Positions 32,916 through 63,847 of a stretch of 64,000 nucleotides of DNA are shown piece after piece. A program made the position numbers and the translations under genes. The notes beneath the pieces were generated by a model. It worked only from the letters and a program-made list of their open reading frames with translations. It was not told the DNA's origin and did not search any database. Origin of the DNA: Streptomyces ficellus (GTDB lineage: Bacteria > Actinomycetota > Actinomycetes > Streptomycetales > Streptomycetaceae); assembly GCF_009739905.1 (NCBI RefSeq), contig NZ_CP034279.1:4526001-4590000 (forward strand). The letters are read 5' to 3'. Positions within the stretch are counted from its first letter, which is position 1. Each line of letters opens with the position of its first letter.

Positions 32916-33283
32916 GGGGATGATCGGTTTCGACAGCGGATGTCGAAGCAGGGGAAGCGTGTCGAGGAAGCGGCAATGATCTCGTAAACCATATGTCGCA
33001 AAAAATAATCGCCAATACCAAGCGCGATTCCTTCGCCCTCGCTGCCTAAGTAGCGAGCTTGCGAAGTGTCAGCCCGGGGCTGTTCCCGACCCGGATCCTG
33101 GCATCAGCTAGGGAACTAAACCTCTAGGCCCGGTCACGGGGTGTAGAGGGAAATCAAACAGTGACTGAGCCCGTCGGAGACTTGTCCGCGTGATCTCCGG
33201 GGCCGAGAAAATCGCAGCGGACTGCACACGGAGAAGCCCTGATTCTGCACCGTTGGACGCGGGTTCGATTCCCGCCATCTCCA
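32916..33283 (+). ncRNA. ssrA: Transfer-messenger RNA (tmRNA)
   Basis: About 368 nt. The 5' end GGGGATGATCGG pairs with CATCTCC near the 3' end to make the 7-bp tRNA-like acceptor stem, and a T-arm GGGTTCGATTCCC is visible. The mRNA-like frame at 33012-33047 encodes ANTKRDSFALAA before TAA (33048-33050); the final LAA is the usual protease degron. The discriminator A (33283) is followed by CGA, so CCA must be added after transcription. A weak promoter, CTGGCA-N19-TACGAT, lies at 32824-32854. Together with SmpB it rescues stalled ribosomes. Confidence 0.96.
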
Positions 33284-33331
33284 CGAGCGGTACCTCCGGG
33301 GGCGTGCCCCCGGACCCGTCACCCCATGTAG

Positions 33332-33371
33332 CCCCTGACCTGCGTCGAAAGTCGCAGGTCAGGGGTTTTTT
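33332..33371 (+). terminator. Rho-independent terminator of ssrA
   Basis: 13-bp perfect stem (33332-33344 with 33353-33365), 8-base loop, then six T (33366-33371). This is the only textbook U-tailed terminator in the window. Confidence 0.93.
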
Positions 33372-37616: not shown

Positions 37617-39803
37617 ATGAGTTCCCCCGGCAAGCGGCGCGCCCAGAAGCAGAGGCGCAGCCGCAGACGCAGGCTGCCCATGCGCTATCTGCTGCCGTCC
37701 CTCTTCCTGGTCGCGCTCCTCGCGATGCTGATGCTGCGCGGCTACGTCCACAGCGAGATCCTCGCCGACCACCGCGTACGCCCCCCGGTCTCCTACGACC
37801 AGGTCCCCGAGCACATCCTCAAGGGCGGACCGGTCATCGACGCCCGTGACAAGAACGCCCCCAAGGCCCTCAGCGTCCCGGACAAGAAGCTCGTCCTGAC
37901 CTTCGACGACGGCCCGGACCCGGTCTGGACGCCCCGCGTCCTGGACAAGCTGAAGGAGTACGACGCCCACGGCGTCTTCTTCGTCACCGGCACCATGGCC
38001 TCGCGCCACCCCGACCTGGTCGAGCGGATGGTGAAGGAGGGCCACGAGGTCGGCCTGCACACCTTCAACCACCCCGACCTGTCCTTCCAGACCAAGAACC
38101 GCATCGACTGGGAGCTGTCGCAGAACCAGCTCGCCATCGCCGGTGCCGCCGGCGTGCGCACCTCGCTCTTCCGCCCGCCGTACTCCTCCTTCTCCAGCGC
38201 CCTGGACAACGAGGCGTGGCCGGTCACGCAGTACATCGGCGAGCGCGGCTACATCACCGCCTTCAACAACACCGACTCCGAGGACTGGAAGCGCCCCGGC
38301 GCCGACGCGATCATCAAGCGCTCCACGCCCAAGGGCACCCAGGGCGCGATCGTGCTGATGCACGACTCCGGTGGCGACCGCTCCCAGACCGTCGAGGCCC
38401 TCGACCGCTTCCTGCCGCAGATGCAGAAGCGGGGGTACGACTTCACGGTCCTCACCGAGGCGCTCGGCGCGCCCAGCGCCCACACCCCGGTCACCGGCCT
38501 GGAGCTGTGGAAGGGCAGGGCCTGGGTCGGCGCGGTCGCCGTGTCCGAGAGCACCACCTCGGTCCTGGTCGGCGGCCTCGCCATCATCGGTGTCCTGGTC
38601 ATCGGCCGCTTCGGCCTGATGCTGCTCCTGTCGTTCGCGCACGCCCGCAAGGTCCGCCGGCGCGGCTTCCGCTGGGGCCCGACCGTCACCGAACCGGTGA
38701 CGGTGCTGGTCCCGGCGTACAACGAGAAGGAGTGCATCGAGAACACGGTGCGCTCGCTGATGGCCAGCGACCATCCCATCGAGGTCATCGTCATCGACGA
38801 CGGCTCCTCGGACGGGACCGCCGACATCGTCGAGAACATGTGGCTGCCCAACGTCCGCGTGGTGCGCCAGGTCAACTCCGGCAAGCCCGAGGCGCTCAAC
38901 AACGGCATCCGCAACGCCCGCTACGACATCATCGTGATGATGGACGGCGACACGGTCTTCGAGCCGTCCACCGTCCGCGAGCTGGTCCAGCCGTTCGGCG
39001 ACCCGCGCGTCGGCGCGGTCGCGGGCAACGCCAAGGTCGGCAACCGCGACTCGCTCATCGGGGCCTGGCAGCACATCGAGTACGTGATGGGCTTCAACCT
39101 CGACCGCCGCATGTACGACCTGCTGGGCTGCATGCCCACCATCCCGGGCGCCGTCGGCGCGTTCCGCCGCGAGGCCCTGGACCGGGTCGGCGGCATGAGC
39201 GAGGACACCCTCGCCGAGGACACCGACATCACCATGGCCATGCACCGCGACGGCTGGCGCGTGGTCTACGCCGAGAAGGCCCGCGCCTGGACCGAGGCGC
39301 CGGAGTCCGTGCAGCAGCTGTGGTCCCAGCGCTACCGCTGGTCCTACGGCACGATGCAGGCCATCTGGAAGCACCGCCGCGCGATCATCGAGCGCGGCCC
39401 GTCCGGCCGCTTCGGCCGGGTCGGCCTGCCGCTGGTGTCGCTGTTCATGGTGCTGTTCCCGCTGCTGGCGCCGCTCATCGACGTGTTCCTGCTGTACGGC
39501 CTGATCTTCGGCCCCACCGGCCAGACGGTCGTGGCCTGGCTCGGCGTGCTCGCCATCCAGGCGGTGTGCGCCGCGTACGCCTTCCGGCTCGACCGGGAGC
39601 GGATGGTCCACCTCATATCCCTGCCGCTCCAGCAACTGCTGTACCGGCAGTTGATGTACGTGGTGCTGCTCCAGTCCTGGATCACCGCCCTCACCGGCGG
39701 CCGGCTGCGCTGGCAGAAGCTGCGCCGGACGGGTGTCGTCGAGGCGCCCGGCTCCATACCGACCCAGCGGCGCAGCGGTGAGGATCGGAGGCCCGTCGCA
39801 TGA
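37617..39803 (+). CDS. matB: MatB-like polysaccharide deacetylase / GT2 synthase fusion
   Basis: 728-aa membrane protein. After a basic tail and one helix comes an extracellular NodB-type deacetylase (about 85-290): TFDDGPDP with the metal-binding Asp pair, HTFNHPDL and RPPYSSFS. After a helix (about 315-345) lies a GT2 processive synthase (about 360-590): VPAYNEKECIE, DDGSSDG, MMDGDTVFEP, the catalytic LAEDTD and the QRYRW motif. C-terminal helices then form the export channel. This plan combines PgaB- and PgaC-like activities and matches MatB of Streptomyces. It probably makes and partly N-deacetylates a beta-1,6-GlcNAc polymer (family knowledge). Confidence 0.9.
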   Translation: MSSPGKRRAQKQRRSRRRRLPMRYLLPSLFLVALLAMLMLRGYVHSEILADHRVRPPVSYDQVPEHILKGGPVIDARDKNAPKALSVPDKKLVLTFDDGPDPVWTPRVLDKLKEYDAHGVFFVTGTMASRHPDLVERMVKEGHEVGLHTFNHPDLSFQTKNRIDWELSQNQLAIAGAAGVRTSLFRPPYSSFSSALDNEAWPVTQYIGERGYITAFNNTDSEDWKRPGADAIIKRSTPKGTQGAIVLMHDSGGDRSQTVEALDRFLPQMQKRGYDFTVLTEALGAPSAHTPVTGLELWKGRAWVGAVAVSESTTSVLVGGLAIIGVLVIGRFGLMLLLSFAHARKVRRRGFRWGPTVTEPVTVLVPAYNEKECIENTVRSLMASDHPIEVIVIDDGSSDGTADIVENMWLPNVRVVRQVNSGKPEALNNGIRNARYDIIVMMDGDTVFEPSTVRELVQPFGDPRVGAVAGNAKVGNRDSLIGAWQHIEYVMGFNLDRRMYDLLGCMPTIPGAVGAFRREALDRVGGMSEDTLAEDTDITMAMHRDGWRVVYAEKARAWTEAPESVQQLWSQRYRWSYGTMQAIWKHRRAIIERGPSGRFGRVGLPLVSLFMVLFPLLAPLIDVFLLYGLIFGPTGQTVVAWLGVLAIQAVCAAYAFRLDRERMVHLISLPLQQLLYRQLMYVVLLQSWITALTGGRLRWQKLRRTGVVEAPGSIPTQRRSGEDRRPVA

Positions 39804-41482
39804 CGACCCCGACCGGCCGCCCCGGCGGCGAGGGCTCCGACTGGTTCGGCACCCCGCCGCCGGCCGGCGACGCGCCCCGCCCGGGCGACTTCCCGGCCAC
39901 CGGCCCGCAGTCCCAGGACGCGGCCCCCTACGGCCAGGACACCCCCTACGGCCAGGACCCGTACGGTCAGGACTCCTCCTACGGGCGGGACCCGTACGGC
40001 CAGGCCCCCTCCAGCCACGACTCCTACGGCCAGGGGGGCTCCGGCCCGTACGGCGGTCACGGCCGCGGCCCCGCCCCGGCGGCGTACGAGCCGGACCCGC
40101 CCGGCGCCCGCCCCGCCGACCGGGCGCCCGGCGGCACCGACCCGTTCGACGGCGCCTTCGCCGACCCGTTCGACCGCCCCTTCGACGCCCCCGCCGCGCA
40201 CGCCCCCGCCCCGCGCGGCAACGGCGGCGACGGCGGCGGCACCGGCACCCTCACCGCCCCCGGCGACACCGGCACGACGACCGCGCTGGAGACCACCGGC
40301 GGAGTGCCGCGCGCACGGCACAAGGCGGAGGTGGCGGGCGGTCCCGCCCCGGCGGCCTCGCGGCCCGGCCGCGACCGCTACCTGGACCTGCTGCGCGCCA
40401 TCGCCCTGCTCCGCGTGATCGTCTATCACATCTTCGGCTGGGCCTGGCTCACGGTCCTGTTCCCGTCCATGGGCGTGATGTTCGCGCTCGCCGGGTCACT
40501 GATGGCGCGCTCGCTGTCGCGGCCCGCGTGGGGCGTGATCCGGGGGCGTGTCCGACGGCTGCTGCCGCCCATGTGGGCGTTCTCGCTCACCGTCGTACCG
40601 ATCATGTTCTACTTCGGCTGGAAGCCGCTGAAGGAAGAAGGCCTGTGGTGGTTCGCCAAGCTGGCCACCTACATCTTCCCGATCGGCGCCCCGCCCTACC
40701 CCTGGCACAGCGGCAGCCAGTCCGGGCTGCTGGAGGACACCTGGGCGGTGCAGGCCGCGGGCCCGCTCTGGTACATCCGCGCCTACCTCTGGTTCGTGAT
40801 CGCCTCGCCGCTGCTGCTGTGGGCGTTCCGCAAGGTGCCGTGGGTGACGCTGCTCGCGCCGCTCGGCCTCACCGCGATCGTCGGCTCCGGCCTGATCAAG
40901 ATCCCCGGTGAGACCGGCAACGCGATCACCGACTTCGCCTGCTACGGCTCCTGCTGGGTGCTGGGCTTCGCGCACAACGAGGGCCTGTTCCAGAAGGTGC
41001 CCCGCTACATCACGGTCTCCGTGTCCGCGCTGATCATGTCCTTCGGGCTGTGGTGGGCGTCCGGGCACCTCGGCCCGGACGGCTGGGACCTCAACGACAT
41101 CCCGCTCGCCCAGGCCACCTGGTCGTTCGGCTTCTGCGTGATCCTGCTCCAGTACTCGCCGTCCTGGAAGGAACTGCCGGGGAAGCTGGCCGCCTGGGAC
41201 ACGGTGGTCACCCTGGCCAACAACCGGGCCGTGACCATCTACCTCTGGCACAACCTGCTGATCATGGCCACCATCCCGATCATCGACCTGCTGTGGAAGA
41301 TCCCGGGTGTCTGGCCGACCTACGCGGGCGCCCTGGAGAGCGCGTACACCGTGCTCATGCTGATCGCGGTCTTCCCGCTCATCGGCCTGATGATCATGTC
41401 CGTGGGCTGGCTGGAGGACGTCGCCGCCAAGCGGAAGCCCAGGCTCTGGCCGAACGGAGCCAAGAAGAAGGCCCGCGGCTAG
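39800..41482 (+). CDS. Acyltransferase family 3 membrane protein with disordered N-terminus
   Basis: 560 aa. The first 190 residues are disordered and contain YGQD repeats (YGQDTPYGQDPYGQDSSYGRD). Ten or so membrane helices follow: an OafA/Acyl_transf_3 domain starting RDRYLDLLRAIALLRVIVYH, with the catalytic-type Arg and His of the family. Such proteins O-acylate sugars. The start overlaps the matB stop by ATGA, so it is the third gene of the mat operon and may acetylate or succinylate the same exopolysaccharide (inference). Confidence 0.88.
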   Translation: MTTPTGRPGGEGSDWFGTPPPAGDAPRPGDFPATGPQSQDAAPYGQDTPYGQDPYGQDSSYGRDPYGQAPSSHDSYGQGGSGPYGGHGRGPAPAAYEPDPPGARPADRAPGGTDPFDGAFADPFDRPFDAPAAHAPAPRGNGGDGGGTGTLTAPGDTGTTTALETTGGVPRARHKAEVAGGPAPAASRPGRDRYLDLLRAIALLRVIVYHIFGWAWLTVLFPSMGVMFALAGSLMARSLSRPAWGVIRGRVRRLLPPMWAFSLTVVPIMFYFGWKPLKEEGLWWFAKLATYIFPIGAPPYPWHSGSQSGLLEDTWAVQAAGPLWYIRAYLWFVIASPLLLWAFRKVPWVTLLAPLGLTAIVGSGLIKIPGETGNAITDFACYGSCWVLGFAHNEGLFQKVPRYITVSVSALIMSFGLWWASGHLGPDGWDLNDIPLAQATWSFGFCVILLQYSPSWKELPGKLAAWDTVVTLANNRAVTIYLWHNLLIMATIPIIDLLWKIPGVWPTYAGALESAYTVLMLIAVFPLIGLMIMSVGWLEDVAAKRKPRLWPNGAKKKARG

Positions 41483-41523
41483 CCGCGTGCTCACAGCACG
41501 CCCGCCCGGCGGGTGAGAGCAAG

Positions 41524-41560
41524 GTTTCAGCCCGGTCATGTCCCATGACCGGGCTGAAAC
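41524..41560. promoter_or_regulatory. Perfect 17-bp inverted repeat containing two GlnR-like half sites, upstream of narK
   Basis: Bases 41524-41540 and 41544-41560 are exact reverse complements around TCC. The right arm reads ATGAC-N6-GAAAC and the left arm its complement, close to the GlnR box gTnAC-N6-GaAAC. A TAGCGT hexamer (41571-41576) follows by 10 bp, so the repeat sits at about -60 to -20 of a narK promoter. It could equally be a terminator of the upstream operon, although no T-tract follows. Confidence 0.6.
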
Positions 41561-41633
41561 GCATCCTCCCTAGCGTCGGTCATGACGGGATTTCGGCTAC
41601 GTCAGGACCTGACAGCAGCAGTGGAGGTACGCC

Positions 41634-42965
41634 GTGAGCGGCCGGTGGATCGAGCAGTGGGAACCCGAGAACGAGACCTTCTGGCGGGAGAAGGGGGAAC
41701 GGATCGCCAGGCGCAACCTGCTCTTCTCCGTCCTCTCCGAGCACATCGGCTTCTCCATCTGGTCCCTGTGGTCCGTGATGGTCCTGTTCATGGGACCGGA
41801 GTACGGCATCGACCCGGCCGGCAAGTTCTCCCTCATCGCCGTGGCGACGGTGGTCGGCGCCGTGATCCGCGTGCCGTACACCTTCGCCGTCGCCCGCTTC
41901 GGCGGCCGCAACTGGACGGTGTTCAGCGCGCTGTTGCTGCTGCTGCCCACGGGCGCCGCGTACACCGTGATGGAGCCGGGCACGTCGTACGGCACCTTCC
42001 TGCTGGTCGCCGCGCTCACCGGCGTCGGCGGTGGCAACTTCGCCTCGTCGATGACCAACATCAACGCCTTCTTCCCCCTCCACAAGAAGGGCTGGGCCCT
42101 CGGCCTCAACGCGGGCGGCGGCAACATCGGCGTCCCCGTCGTCCAGCTCGTGGGCCTGCTCGTCATCGGCACGGCCGGCGCCGCCCACCCACGGCTCGTC
42201 CTCGGCCTCTACCTCCCGCTGATCGTCGTCGCCGCCCTGTGCGCCGCGCTGTACATGGACAACCTGGCACCCGTGCGGAACGACACCGGCGCCGTCCGGG
42301 AAGCCGTCAAGGACGCCCACACCTGGGTCATGGCGTTCCTCTACATCGGCACCTTCGGCTCGTTCATCGGCTACAGCTTCGCCTTCGGCCTCGTCCTCCA
42401 GACCCAGTTCGGCCGCACCCCGCTCCAGGCCGCCTCCCTCACCTTCATCGGCCCGCTGCTCGGCTCCCTGATCCGGCCGCTCGGCGGCTCGCTGGCCGAC
42501 CGGCACGGCGGCGCCCGCATCACGCTGGGCACCTTCGCCGCCATGGCCGCCGCGACCGGCGTGGTCCTCTACGCCTCGCTCGTCGAGTCCCTGGCCGTCT
42601 TCCTCACCGGCTTCGTCGCCCTGTTCGTCCTGAGCGGCCTCGGCAACGGCTCCACGTTCAAGATGATCCCGGCCATCTTCCGCGCCAAGGCCCACGCCTC
42701 CGGGCTCGAGGGCGAGGAGGCCGAGGCGTACGGCAGGCGGCTCTCGGGCGCCGCGATCGGACTGATCGGCGCGGTCGGCGCCATCGGCGGACTCGCCATC
42801 AACCTGGCCTTCCGCCAGTCCTTCGCGACCGCCGGCACCGGCACCGCCGCCTTCGTGGCCTTCCTGCTCTTCTACGCCGCCTGTCTGACCGTCACCTGGG
42901 CGGTATACCTTCGCCGCCCGGTGGAGGTCCCCACGAGGCGACGGCTCGGCTACTCCGAGGTGTGA
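41634..42965 (+). CDS. narK: Nitrate/nitrite transporter, NarK/NNP type (MFS)
   Basis: 443-aa MFS protein with 12 helices and the nitrate-nitrite-porter signatures: GGNFASSMTNINAFFP and the Gly-rich GLNAGGGNIGVPVVQL of helix 5, and NGSTFKMIPAIF in the C-terminal half. GTG at 41634 has GGAGG upstream. It imports nitrate or exports nitrite. nnaR, the nitrate-assimilation regulator, starts 89 bp downstream, so assimilation is the probable context. No nitrate or nitrite reductase gene is in the window. Confidence 0.92.
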   Translation: MSGRWIEQWEPENETFWREKGERIARRNLLFSVLSEHIGFSIWSLWSVMVLFMGPEYGIDPAGKFSLIAVATVVGAVIRVPYTFAVARFGGRNWTVFSALLLLLPTGAAYTVMEPGTSYGTFLLVAALTGVGGGNFASSMTNINAFFPLHKKGWALGLNAGGGNIGVPVVQLVGLLVIGTAGAAHPRLVLGLYLPLIVVAALCAALYMDNLAPVRNDTGAVREAVKDAHTWVMAFLYIGTFGSFIGYSFAFGLVLQTQFGRTPLQAASLTFIGPLLGSLIRPLGGSLADRHGGARITLGTFAAMAAATGVVLYASLVESLAVFLTGFVALFVLSGLGNGSTFKMIPAIFRAKAHASGLEGEEAEAYGRRLSGAAIGLIGAVGAIGGLAINLAFRQSFATAGTGTAAFVAFLLFYAACLTVTWAVYLRRPVEVPTRRRLGYSEV

Positions 42966-42992: not shown

Positions 42993-43030
42993 GTAACGGG
43001 GGAGAAACCCCGGCGAACCGAGACCGACAC
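42993..43030 (+). promoter_or_regulatory. GlnR box upstream of nnaR
   Basis: GTAAC (42993-42997), six bases, GAAAC (43004-43008) matches the GlnR a-site consensus gTnAC-N6-GaAAC exactly. Six bases on there is a weaker second unit, GAACC-N6-GACAC (43015-43030), at the b-site spacing. The site ends 24 bp before the nnaR ATG. Confidence 0.75.
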
Positions 43031-43054: not shown

Positions 43055-44203
43055 ATGCACGAGCAACAGGATGGTTCCCACGGCCCGCTGGCCGGCTTCA
43101 CCGTCGGCGTCACCGCCGCCCGCCGCGCCGACGAGCTGGGCGCGCTGCTGGAACGCCGCGGGGGAGCGGTCCAGCACGCCCCGGCACTGCGCATCGTGCC
43201 GCTCGCCGACGACACCGAGCTCCTCCACGCCACCAAGGCCCTCGTGGGCCACGCCCCGGACATCGTGGTCGCCACCACCGCGATCGGCTTCCGCGGCTGG
43301 CTGGAGGCGGCCGACGGCTGGGGGTACGGGGAGGAGCTCCGGAGCCGGCTGCGCGGCGCCCAGGTCCTCGCCCGGGGCCCCAAGGTCAAGGGCGCGGTAC
43401 GGGCCGCCGGGCTCACCGAGGAGTGGTCGCCCGCCTCCGACTCCATGGCCGAAGTCCTCGACCGGCTCCTCGGGCAGGACGTGACGGGGCGCCGCATCGC
43501 GCTCCAGCTGCACGGCGAGCCGCTGCCGGGGTTCGTGGAGGCCCTGCGGGCGGCGGGCGCCGAGGTGGTGGTCGTTCCCGTCTACCGGTGGATGCCGCCC
43601 GAGGACCTCGCGCCCCTGGACCGGCTCATCGACGCGACGGTCGCCCGGTCGCTGGACGCGGTGACCTTCACCAGCGCCCCGGCCGGCGCCTCGCTGCTGT
43701 CCCGCGCCCAGGACCGGGGCCTGCTGCCCGGACTGCTCGACGCGCTGCGCGGCGACGTGCTGGCCGCCTGCGTCGGGCCGGTCACCGCCCTGCCGCTCCA
43801 GGCGCACGGCATCGAGACCGTCCAGCCGGCCCGGTTCCGGCTCGGCCCGCTGGTCCAGCTGTTGTGCCAGGAGCTGCCCGCGCGGGCCCGTACGCTCCCG
43901 GTCGCGGGGCGCCGCATCGAGATCCGGGGCCACGCCGTCCTGGTCGACGGCGACCTGCGGCCCGTGCCGCCCGCGGGCATGTCCCTGCTCCACTCTCTGG
44001 CCCGCCGCCCCGGCTGGGTCGTCTCCCGCGCCGACCTGCTGCGCGCCCTGCCCGGCGCGGGCCGCGACGAGCACGCCGTGGAGACCGCGATGGCCCGCCT
44101 CCGCTCGGCCCTGGGCGCGCCCAAGCTCATCCAGACCGTCGTCAAGCGCGGCTACCGTCTCGCCCTGGACCCGGGCGCCGACGCCAAGTACGCGGACGGG
44201 TGA
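43055..44203 (+). CDS. nnaR: HemD-like transcriptional regulator NnaR (nitrate/nitrite assimilation)
   Basis: 382-aa protein joining a uroporphyrinogen-III synthase-like fold (about 12-270, GPLAGFTVGVTAARRADELGALLERRG; SMAEVLDRLL) to an OmpR-type winged helix (about 285-372, ending IQTVVKRGYRLALD). In S. coelicolor, NnaR has this architecture and activates nitrate/nitrite genes together with GlnR. The HemD part is probably a sensor, not an enzyme. The ATG at 43055 lacks a clear RBS; TTG at 43037 is an alternative. It lies downstream of narK on the same strand behind its own GlnR box. Confidence 0.88.
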   Translation: MHEQQDGSHGPLAGFTVGVTAARRADELGALLERRGGAVQHAPALRIVPLADDTELLHATKALVGHAPDIVVATTAIGFRGWLEAADGWGYGEELRSRLRGAQVLARGPKVKGAVRAAGLTEEWSPASDSMAEVLDRLLGQDVTGRRIALQLHGEPLPGFVEALRAAGAEVVVVPVYRWMPPEDLAPLDRLIDATVARSLDAVTFTSAPAGASLLSRAQDRGLLPGLLDALRGDVLAACVGPVTALPLQAHGIETVQPARFRLGPLVQLLCQELPARARTLPVAGRRIEIRGHAVLVDGDLRPVPPAGMSLLHSLARRPGWVVSRADLLRALPGAGRDEHAVETAMARLRSALGAPKLIQTVVKRGYRLALDPGADAKYADG

Positions 44204-54159: not shown

Positions 54160-54175
54160 GGTCCGGCCCCGCCGG

Positions 54176-54225
54176 ACGGAGGCCCCCGGGGTGCGTACAC
54201 GCGTACGCACCCCGGGGGCCTCCGT
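54176..54225. terminator. 23-bp perfect hairpin terminator
   Basis: 54176-54198 pairs exactly with 54203-54225 around a 4-base loop, followed by a short T run, 16 bp after the DUF3039 gene. It separates that gene from the sugar-uptake operon. Confidence 0.92.
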
Positions 54226-54238
54226 CGTTTGATCACGG

Positions 54239-63814: not shown

Positions 63815-63847
63815 TGGTACTACTTTGACCCCATCAAAGTAGTACCA
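63815..63847. promoter_or_regulatory. Perfect 14-bp inverted repeat, probable operator of the RHH gene
   Basis: 63815-63828 (tggtactactttga) and 63834-63847 are exact reverse complements with a 5-base spacer. The repeat contains TTTGACC and ends 7 bp before the ATG at 63855, so a bound dimer pair would block the promoter. Autoregulation by the RHH product is the obvious model. Confidence 0.75.

Follow-up and report, generated by a model that had tools for sequence, protein, structure and literature searches.

A perfect palindrome over the GlnR-type array before narK in one group of Streptomyces

A composite NnaR-GlnR site is said to have been described for Streptomyces coelicolor by Amin et al. 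in 2012. The genes narK, nirB and nasA have been named as targets in which an NnaR motif lies near a GlnR motif (PMC6277429, PMC11162112, PMC10704036), and PMC10704036 counts narK among these targets after Amin et al. 2012. In the GlnR activation complex, four DNA-binding domains are arranged head-to-tail (Shi et al. 2023, as presented in PMC10704036). For S. venezuelae, the published table of GlnR ChIP-chip targets contains nnaR (Sven_2720) and does not contain narK, and GlnR alone was reported to give no shift of the Sven_2720 promoter. The single GlnR boxes published for this species follow the consensus GTnAC-n6-GTnAC, which reads identically on both strands and leaves the strand of such a box ambiguous.

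We analysed the region before narK in S. ficellus, within a window that comprises the whole stretch of 64,000 nucleotides. The genes upstream of narK encode a polysaccharide deacetylase/GT2 protein and an Acyl_transf_3 protein (Pfam), the latter being an open reading frame in the direction of narK (39800-41482, + strand; PF01757). The narK gene has a GTG start (41634-42965, + strand); its product matches Pfam MFS_1 and scores 295.7 bits against the NCBIfam NarK model TIGR00886, slightly below the cut-off of 311.7. In front of narK lies an NnaR-type dyad, CTCAC-N18-GTGAG (41490-41517; pattern match G000:C1:4567490-4567517), which corresponds to the published motif (PMC6277429, PMC11162112) and was not part of the preliminary description of this DNA. 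The dyad is followed by six bases and then by four GlnR-like units on the + strand at steps of 11, 10 and 11 bp: GTTTC (unit 1, a1; 41524-41528), GTCAT (unit 2, b1; 41535-41539), ATGAC (unit 3, a2; 41545-41549) and GAAAC (unit 4, b2; 41556-41560). Relative to gTnAc/GaAAc, unit 4 fits exactly, unit 3 is one base off and units 1 and 2 fit in part. The right half of the dyad, GTGAG at 41513, stands in the same 11-bp step as the units, and ten bases separate unit 4 from TAGCGT (41571-41576, + strand), the -10 element of narK. The four units lie within a perfect inverted repeat at 41524-41560, GTTTCAGCCCGGTCATG-TCC-CATGACCGGGCTGAAAC, whose 17-bp arms flank a loop of 3 nt. The preliminary description had reported a perfect 17-bp palindrome before narK, TGAC-N6-GAAAC in each of its arms, and an end 10 bp before a TAGCGT hexamer; we confirmed all three, with 17 perfect pairs and ATGAC-CGGGCT-GAAAC read in each arm on its own strand.

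The palindrome is probably the GlnR-binding part of a composite NnaR-GlnR activator site in the narK promoter. Judging from published motifs and homology, NnaR would bind the CTCAC-N18-GTGAG dyad, and GlnR would occupy the four half-sites that follow, head-to-tail and in a register of 10-11 bp, the last of them 10 bp from the -10 element. GlnR would then recruit RNA polymerase under nitrogen limitation. In one Streptomyces group, this array, which is loosely symmetric in all the others too, would have become a perfect palindrome with its four units in place. The location of nnaR supports an NnaR-GlnR site: this gene, with a HemD domain and an OmpR-type DNA-binding domain (Pfam HEM4 and Trans_reg_C), lies downstream of narK (43055-44203, + strand) and has a GlnR-type box of its own, GTAAC-N6-GAAAC (42993-43008, + strand; pattern match), which sits in the narK-nnaR gap, 46 bp ahead of the nnaR start. 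The S. venezuelae results on GlnR given above count against this reading, as do three observations described below: the nine narK regions in which the frame was not recognised, the poor fit of unit 3 in the 45-bp class, and the different right dyad half and -10-like hexamer of nirB.

The layout is conserved across the genus. We compiled 194 narK upstream regions from 30 loci, the best 80 of 546 relatives and 84 further stretches, a set in which some species are present twice (L002 and L032 are identical in narK). A narK match was found in 136 of 150 genomes, and 22 of these 136 were left out for having distant copies only (15), contig edges (5) or partial matches (2), which biases the sample towards close orthologues. 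CTCAC and GTGAG separated by 12 to 26 bases were found in 169 of the 194 regions, with a spacer of exactly 18 in 153, and in these regions, as in the window, the dyad adjoins the GlnR motif. The frame GTGA[GA]...G[AC]AA[CT] was recognised in 185 of the 194 regions and not in the other nine, its step being 43 bp in 141 elements, 44 bp in six and 45 bp in 38. Recognition used only the first and last anchors, whose own counts are therefore partly circular, and made no use of units 1 to 3 or of the -10 element. GTTnC occurs at the step of unit 1 in 177 of the 185 elements and GTnA[CT] at that of unit 2 in 182; GAAA[CT] occurs at unit 4 in 184, a partly circular count as unit 4 is a recognition anchor. 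The pattern of unit 3 depends on the length class: with a 43-bp step it is present in 138 of 141 elements, with 44 bp in one of six, and with 45 bp in four of 38, leaving 34 that miss it. Where the window has ATGAC, most other species of the 43-bp class have GnCAC. Finally, TANNNT begins exactly 10 bp past unit 4 in 184 of the 185 elements. Units of a- and b-type at the 11-bp spacing on one strand (steps of 11, 10 and 11 bp in the window) are thus a feature of 185 of 194 regions. The GlnR-like sites of the preliminary description stand as a GlnR-type region at a fixed distance from the -10 element in nearly all narK regions, not as an isolated inverted pair.

Some further features of these regions were observed. 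Elements of the 45-bp class (38 of 185; L069, L074, L077, L079 and others) carry two extra bases within the GlnR-type array, and in L030 and L074 of this class the inner part of the array can form another hairpin. The window also contains a small palindrome, GTCAGG-A-CCTGAC (41601-41613), between the narK -10 element and the ribosome-binding site, and other species present different short palindromes in this interval. At least six bases complementary to the -10/start stretch were found in 46 of 158 distinct leaders, compared with 9.5 in shuffles; we set this pairing aside, as it would begin inside the -10 element.

Searches of the S. ficellus genome indicate how specific the arms are. The arm pattern with up to two mismatches has 57 matches, against 19 for the reversed pattern, and the only exact ones are the two arms of the palindrome itself. 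The RTNAC-N6-GAAAC core has 29 matches, against two for its reversed control; a TANNNT lies 8-13 bp downstream of one of the 29, the right arm of the palindrome, and the reversed box of the left arm has none at that distance. By itself, this core is weak evidence for a GlnR site. A chance GlnR-like match was nevertheless rejected: the two-box core is unspecific, yet conservation extends over the complete register in 185 of the 194 regions before narK. A dispersed or mobile repeat was also ruled out, the palindrome being single-copy in its own genome and its perfect form occurring once each in five of 392 genomes.

Perfect symmetry is restricted to one group. Within the 43-bp class (n = 141), eight loci pair at 15 of 15 positions, L099 pairs at 12, and the remaining 132 pair at 5-11. 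The eight palindrome loci form one clade (support 100/99) in a tree of 110 narK rows. Across the 392 genomes, the strict inverted box pair was found in seven: the five with the perfect form, G386 (locus L307), and G123, where it lies in one unrelated place. L307 carries the same element with its four units kept and two mispairs, and is likely a ninth member of the palindrome group; it was recovered by a pattern that required the four units, the other eight loci by narK similarity. When L307 was added, the best tree placed it within the group. Neither a tree that holds the eight together (AU p 0.36) nor one that unites all ten, L099 and L307 included (p 0.43), was rejected; in a smaller, unresolved tree of 26 rows, the group stood as two separate halves and L307 lay outside. 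A base-paired structure across the genus was ruled out, as pairing outside the palindrome group rests on fixed symmetric bases. The excess of pairing over shuffles at variable positions was mixed (z -2.8 to 3.7, palindrome rows included).

A serious possibility, though one that we doubt on balance, is that a second function overlays the NnaR-GlnR site. The palindrome would also form a U-less hairpin that terminates the transcript of the acyltransferase gene or stabilises its 3′ end, and selection on this hairpin would have perfected the symmetry. The strength of the stem and its place fit what is expected of U-less terminators: the palindrome begins 41 bases after the stop codon of the acyltransferase gene, and RNA of 41510-41580 folds at -39.3 kcal/mol (z -6.6 relative to 200 shuffles). 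However, no T-run follows the stem, and we detected no classical intrinsic terminator in 41300-41800. In S. clavuligerus, the U-tract is missing from 353 of 535 highly structured 3′ ends (PMC8269248). A scan for perfect hairpins with arms of at least 14 and loops of 3-10 identified six in the window (arms of 24, 24, 18, 17, 15 and 14) and none in five first-order Markov resamples of it; the palindrome therefore exceeds what chance would give, although the window has several long hairpins. Three of the other five start 13-39 bp after a called gene on the + strand, which favours a role at 3′ ends, and the remaining two lie at least 468 bp from the nearest called upstream gene. No T-run of five or more follows any of these five, unlike a shorter hairpin behind the tmRNA.

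Several of these structures are of note in themselves. Two perfect hairpins, each with arms of 24 bp around a 4-nt loop, occupy 54175-54226 and 1228-1279. At 63815-63847, 39 bp past a called gene, lies a perfect inverted repeat (TGGTACTACTTTGA) whose 14-bp arms are AT-rich, which is odd for this GC-rich window. Among the long perfect hairpins of the window, the one that follows the tmRNA gene (32916-33365) is alone in having a T-run.

The genes upstream of narK bear on the same possibility. We checked 11 loci of the palindrome group and L307, three of them repeats of others. Each has a codirectional upstream gene, as expected if the hairpin serves the upstream transcript; by a codon-bias caller, this gene ends 8 to 449 bp before the palindrome. 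The upstream genes of the eight palindrome loci fall in four BLAST clusters, which argues that the palindrome belongs to narK and not to the acyltransferase gene. A property of the acyltransferase operon was accordingly ruled out, since the upstream gene clusters vary while the element stays. Across all 194 narK loci, the upstream gene is codirectional in 172 and divergent in 14, and eight have none. Hairpin strength did not depend on this orientation (153 codirectional versus 13 divergent loci, p 0.12), the median z being about -1 for both, which does not support hairpins being needed only after codirectional genes and stands against the overlay. Perfect hairpins of at least 11 pairs were found in 30 of 153 codirectional and one of 13 divergent loci. 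Overall, such hairpins are present in 32 of 185 loci, the GlnR axis accounting for eight, the NnaR axis for 20 and positions further upstream for four; 28 of the 32 thus have their centre exactly at one of the two dyads. On the 110-row tree, these three states need one, five and three changes, respectively. Hairpins in these regions grow from operator axes, as expected either from a shared operator-terminator or from arm copying. Two loci are harder to reconcile with selection for a terminator: L222 has a perfect NnaR-axis hairpin beside a divergent neighbour, and L307 retains its units despite two mispairs.

NnaR-axis hairpins merit separate mention. In the griseus group (L016, L017, L044, L065, L067 and others) the NnaR dyad itself is a perfect hairpin, TCTCACCGGGCCG...CGGCCCGGTGAGA, located about 95-125 bp before narK, and hairpins on this axis are also found in L179 and L222.

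The double role as regulator and terminator that had been suggested for this element is therefore plausible from the stem and its place, and is not borne out by a T-run or by the genus-wide comparison of orientations. A rather doubtful extension, which we put forward tentatively, is that two codes share these 37 bp: in the DNA, a GlnR activator array, arranged head-to-tail, that acts on narK, and in read-through RNA, a perfect hairpin of terminator type; the operator dyads of narK, whether of NnaR or of GlnR, would then be repeated seeds of such hairpins, linking activator occupancy to upstream read-through.

It is also possible, but unlikely, that the symmetry is a mutational by-product that adds nothing. 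Template switching during replication is a known process at quasi-palindromes, and at this element it may have copied one arm onto the other. The gap in the distribution of pairing and the presence of the perfect form in a single group are what such copying would leave. The same is true of the substitutions in the arms: among six changes, four are complementary swaps at pair 9/31 and two are the mispairs of L307. The number of these changes is lower than a by-product would lead us to expect. Across nine loci, six changes occurred at the 13 arm positions that vary freely in other clades, whereas 23.1 changes are expected from the sister-clade rate (P 2.6e-5), 15.0 from the rate of all loci (P 0.008) and 10.5 from the griseus-clade rate (P 0.10). 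In the palindrome group, the loop (2.07 changes per position and unit of tree length) and the NnaR spacer (4.7) evolve as elsewhere or faster. This moderately suggests that the arm positions are under extra constraint, to a degree that depends on the reference. In addition, L099 and L307 share the inner half of the palindrome and have unpaired outer positions, a pattern that hints at a stepwise gain rather than a single event. Both the route to symmetry and any effect that it may add are inferred.

Returning to the GlnR array of the composite site, the preliminary description had proposed two GlnR boxes in inverted orientation as the working unit, a reading that we do not favour and regard as quite improbable. 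Both arms match RTNAC-N6-GAAAC, the strand of a single S. venezuelae box is ambiguous, and six of the seven genomes with the strict form have it at the narK element. Nevertheless, the inverted arrangement is not conserved beyond one group (15/15 pairing in 8 of 141 loci); across the genus, four units share one register, the left box elsewhere retains few fixed bases, with unit 3 as GnCAC, and the -10 element lies at the right distance for the right arm only. The nirB promoters point the same way. A scan of 30 nirB loci detected the frame in 24, the exceptions being L248, L249, L254, L256, L259 and L277. The strict frame CTCAC-N18-C[TG]GAG-N6-unit-n6-GAAAC-n6-unit-n6-G[TA]AAC, which leaves units 1 and 3 free, again matched 24 of the 30. 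In these 24 loci, the right half of the dyad is CTGAG (22) or CGGAG (2) and not GTGAG; unit 1 is GTTCC (21), TTTCC (2: the S. ficellus genome and G006) or GTTGC (1); the free unit 3 is GATGC in 22; unit 4 is GTAAC (21) or GAAAC (3); and a -10-like CANNNT stands 10 bp further on in all 24. The nirB regions thus share the dyad-N6 start with narK and continue with four direct 11-bp units, which favours the direct, head-to-tail reading, in agreement with the head-to-tail GlnR complex (PMC10704036). In the same genome, nirB lacks the palindrome, which shows that it is not required for co-activation as such. Lastly, a plain terminator of the upstream operon that merely resembles GlnR sites can hardly be the explanation: it would account for the hairpin form and its place, but the units, the register and the distance to the -10 element are conserved where such a hairpin is absent, and the upstream genes differ.

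In the palindrome, the nitrogen-control switch before narK has truly been remodelled in one lineage, and the composite NnaR-GlnR site itself is of a known kind. We found no description of a palindromic GlnR array at narK in the titles and abstract openings that we searched. As far as this search goes, two things are new: that one group has a perfect palindrome superimposed on an intact array, and the precise geometry of the site in many species. These results provide the exact geometry of the Streptomyces NnaR-GlnR site (dyad, 6 bp, four units, 10 bp, -10 element) together with natural variants of each part. They also document a natural instance in which a perfect palindrome has been written over an activator array whose half-sites were kept. 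Such an instance can help to address the question of whether, in crowded high-GC genomes, the same bases can serve both operators and terminators.

Compared with the NnaR-GlnR co-activated narK, nirB and nasA promoters reported for Streptomyces and Mycobacterium, this locus has the same CTCAC...GTGAG dyad and GlnR motif with nnaR nearby, but here, and only in one small group, a perfect 17-bp palindrome makes up the GlnR part. The spacer of the NnaR dyad is printed as 13-16 bp plus flanking letters, whereas our N18 is counted from CTCAC to GTGAG. Like the GlnR box a1-b1-a2-b2 (gTnAc-n6-GaAAc twice), the array has four 5-bp units in an 11-bp register with the last near the -10 element; it differs in its middle step of 10 bp and in GTTTC and GTCAT, which in the direct reading fit the consensus only in part. 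With the U-less (I-shaped) hairpin 3′ ends of high-GC bacteria, the palindrome shares a long GC-rich stem, a short loop, a position shortly past a stop codon and the lack of a T-run, but here the bases are fixed by the operator of the next gene, upstream of its presumed transcription start.
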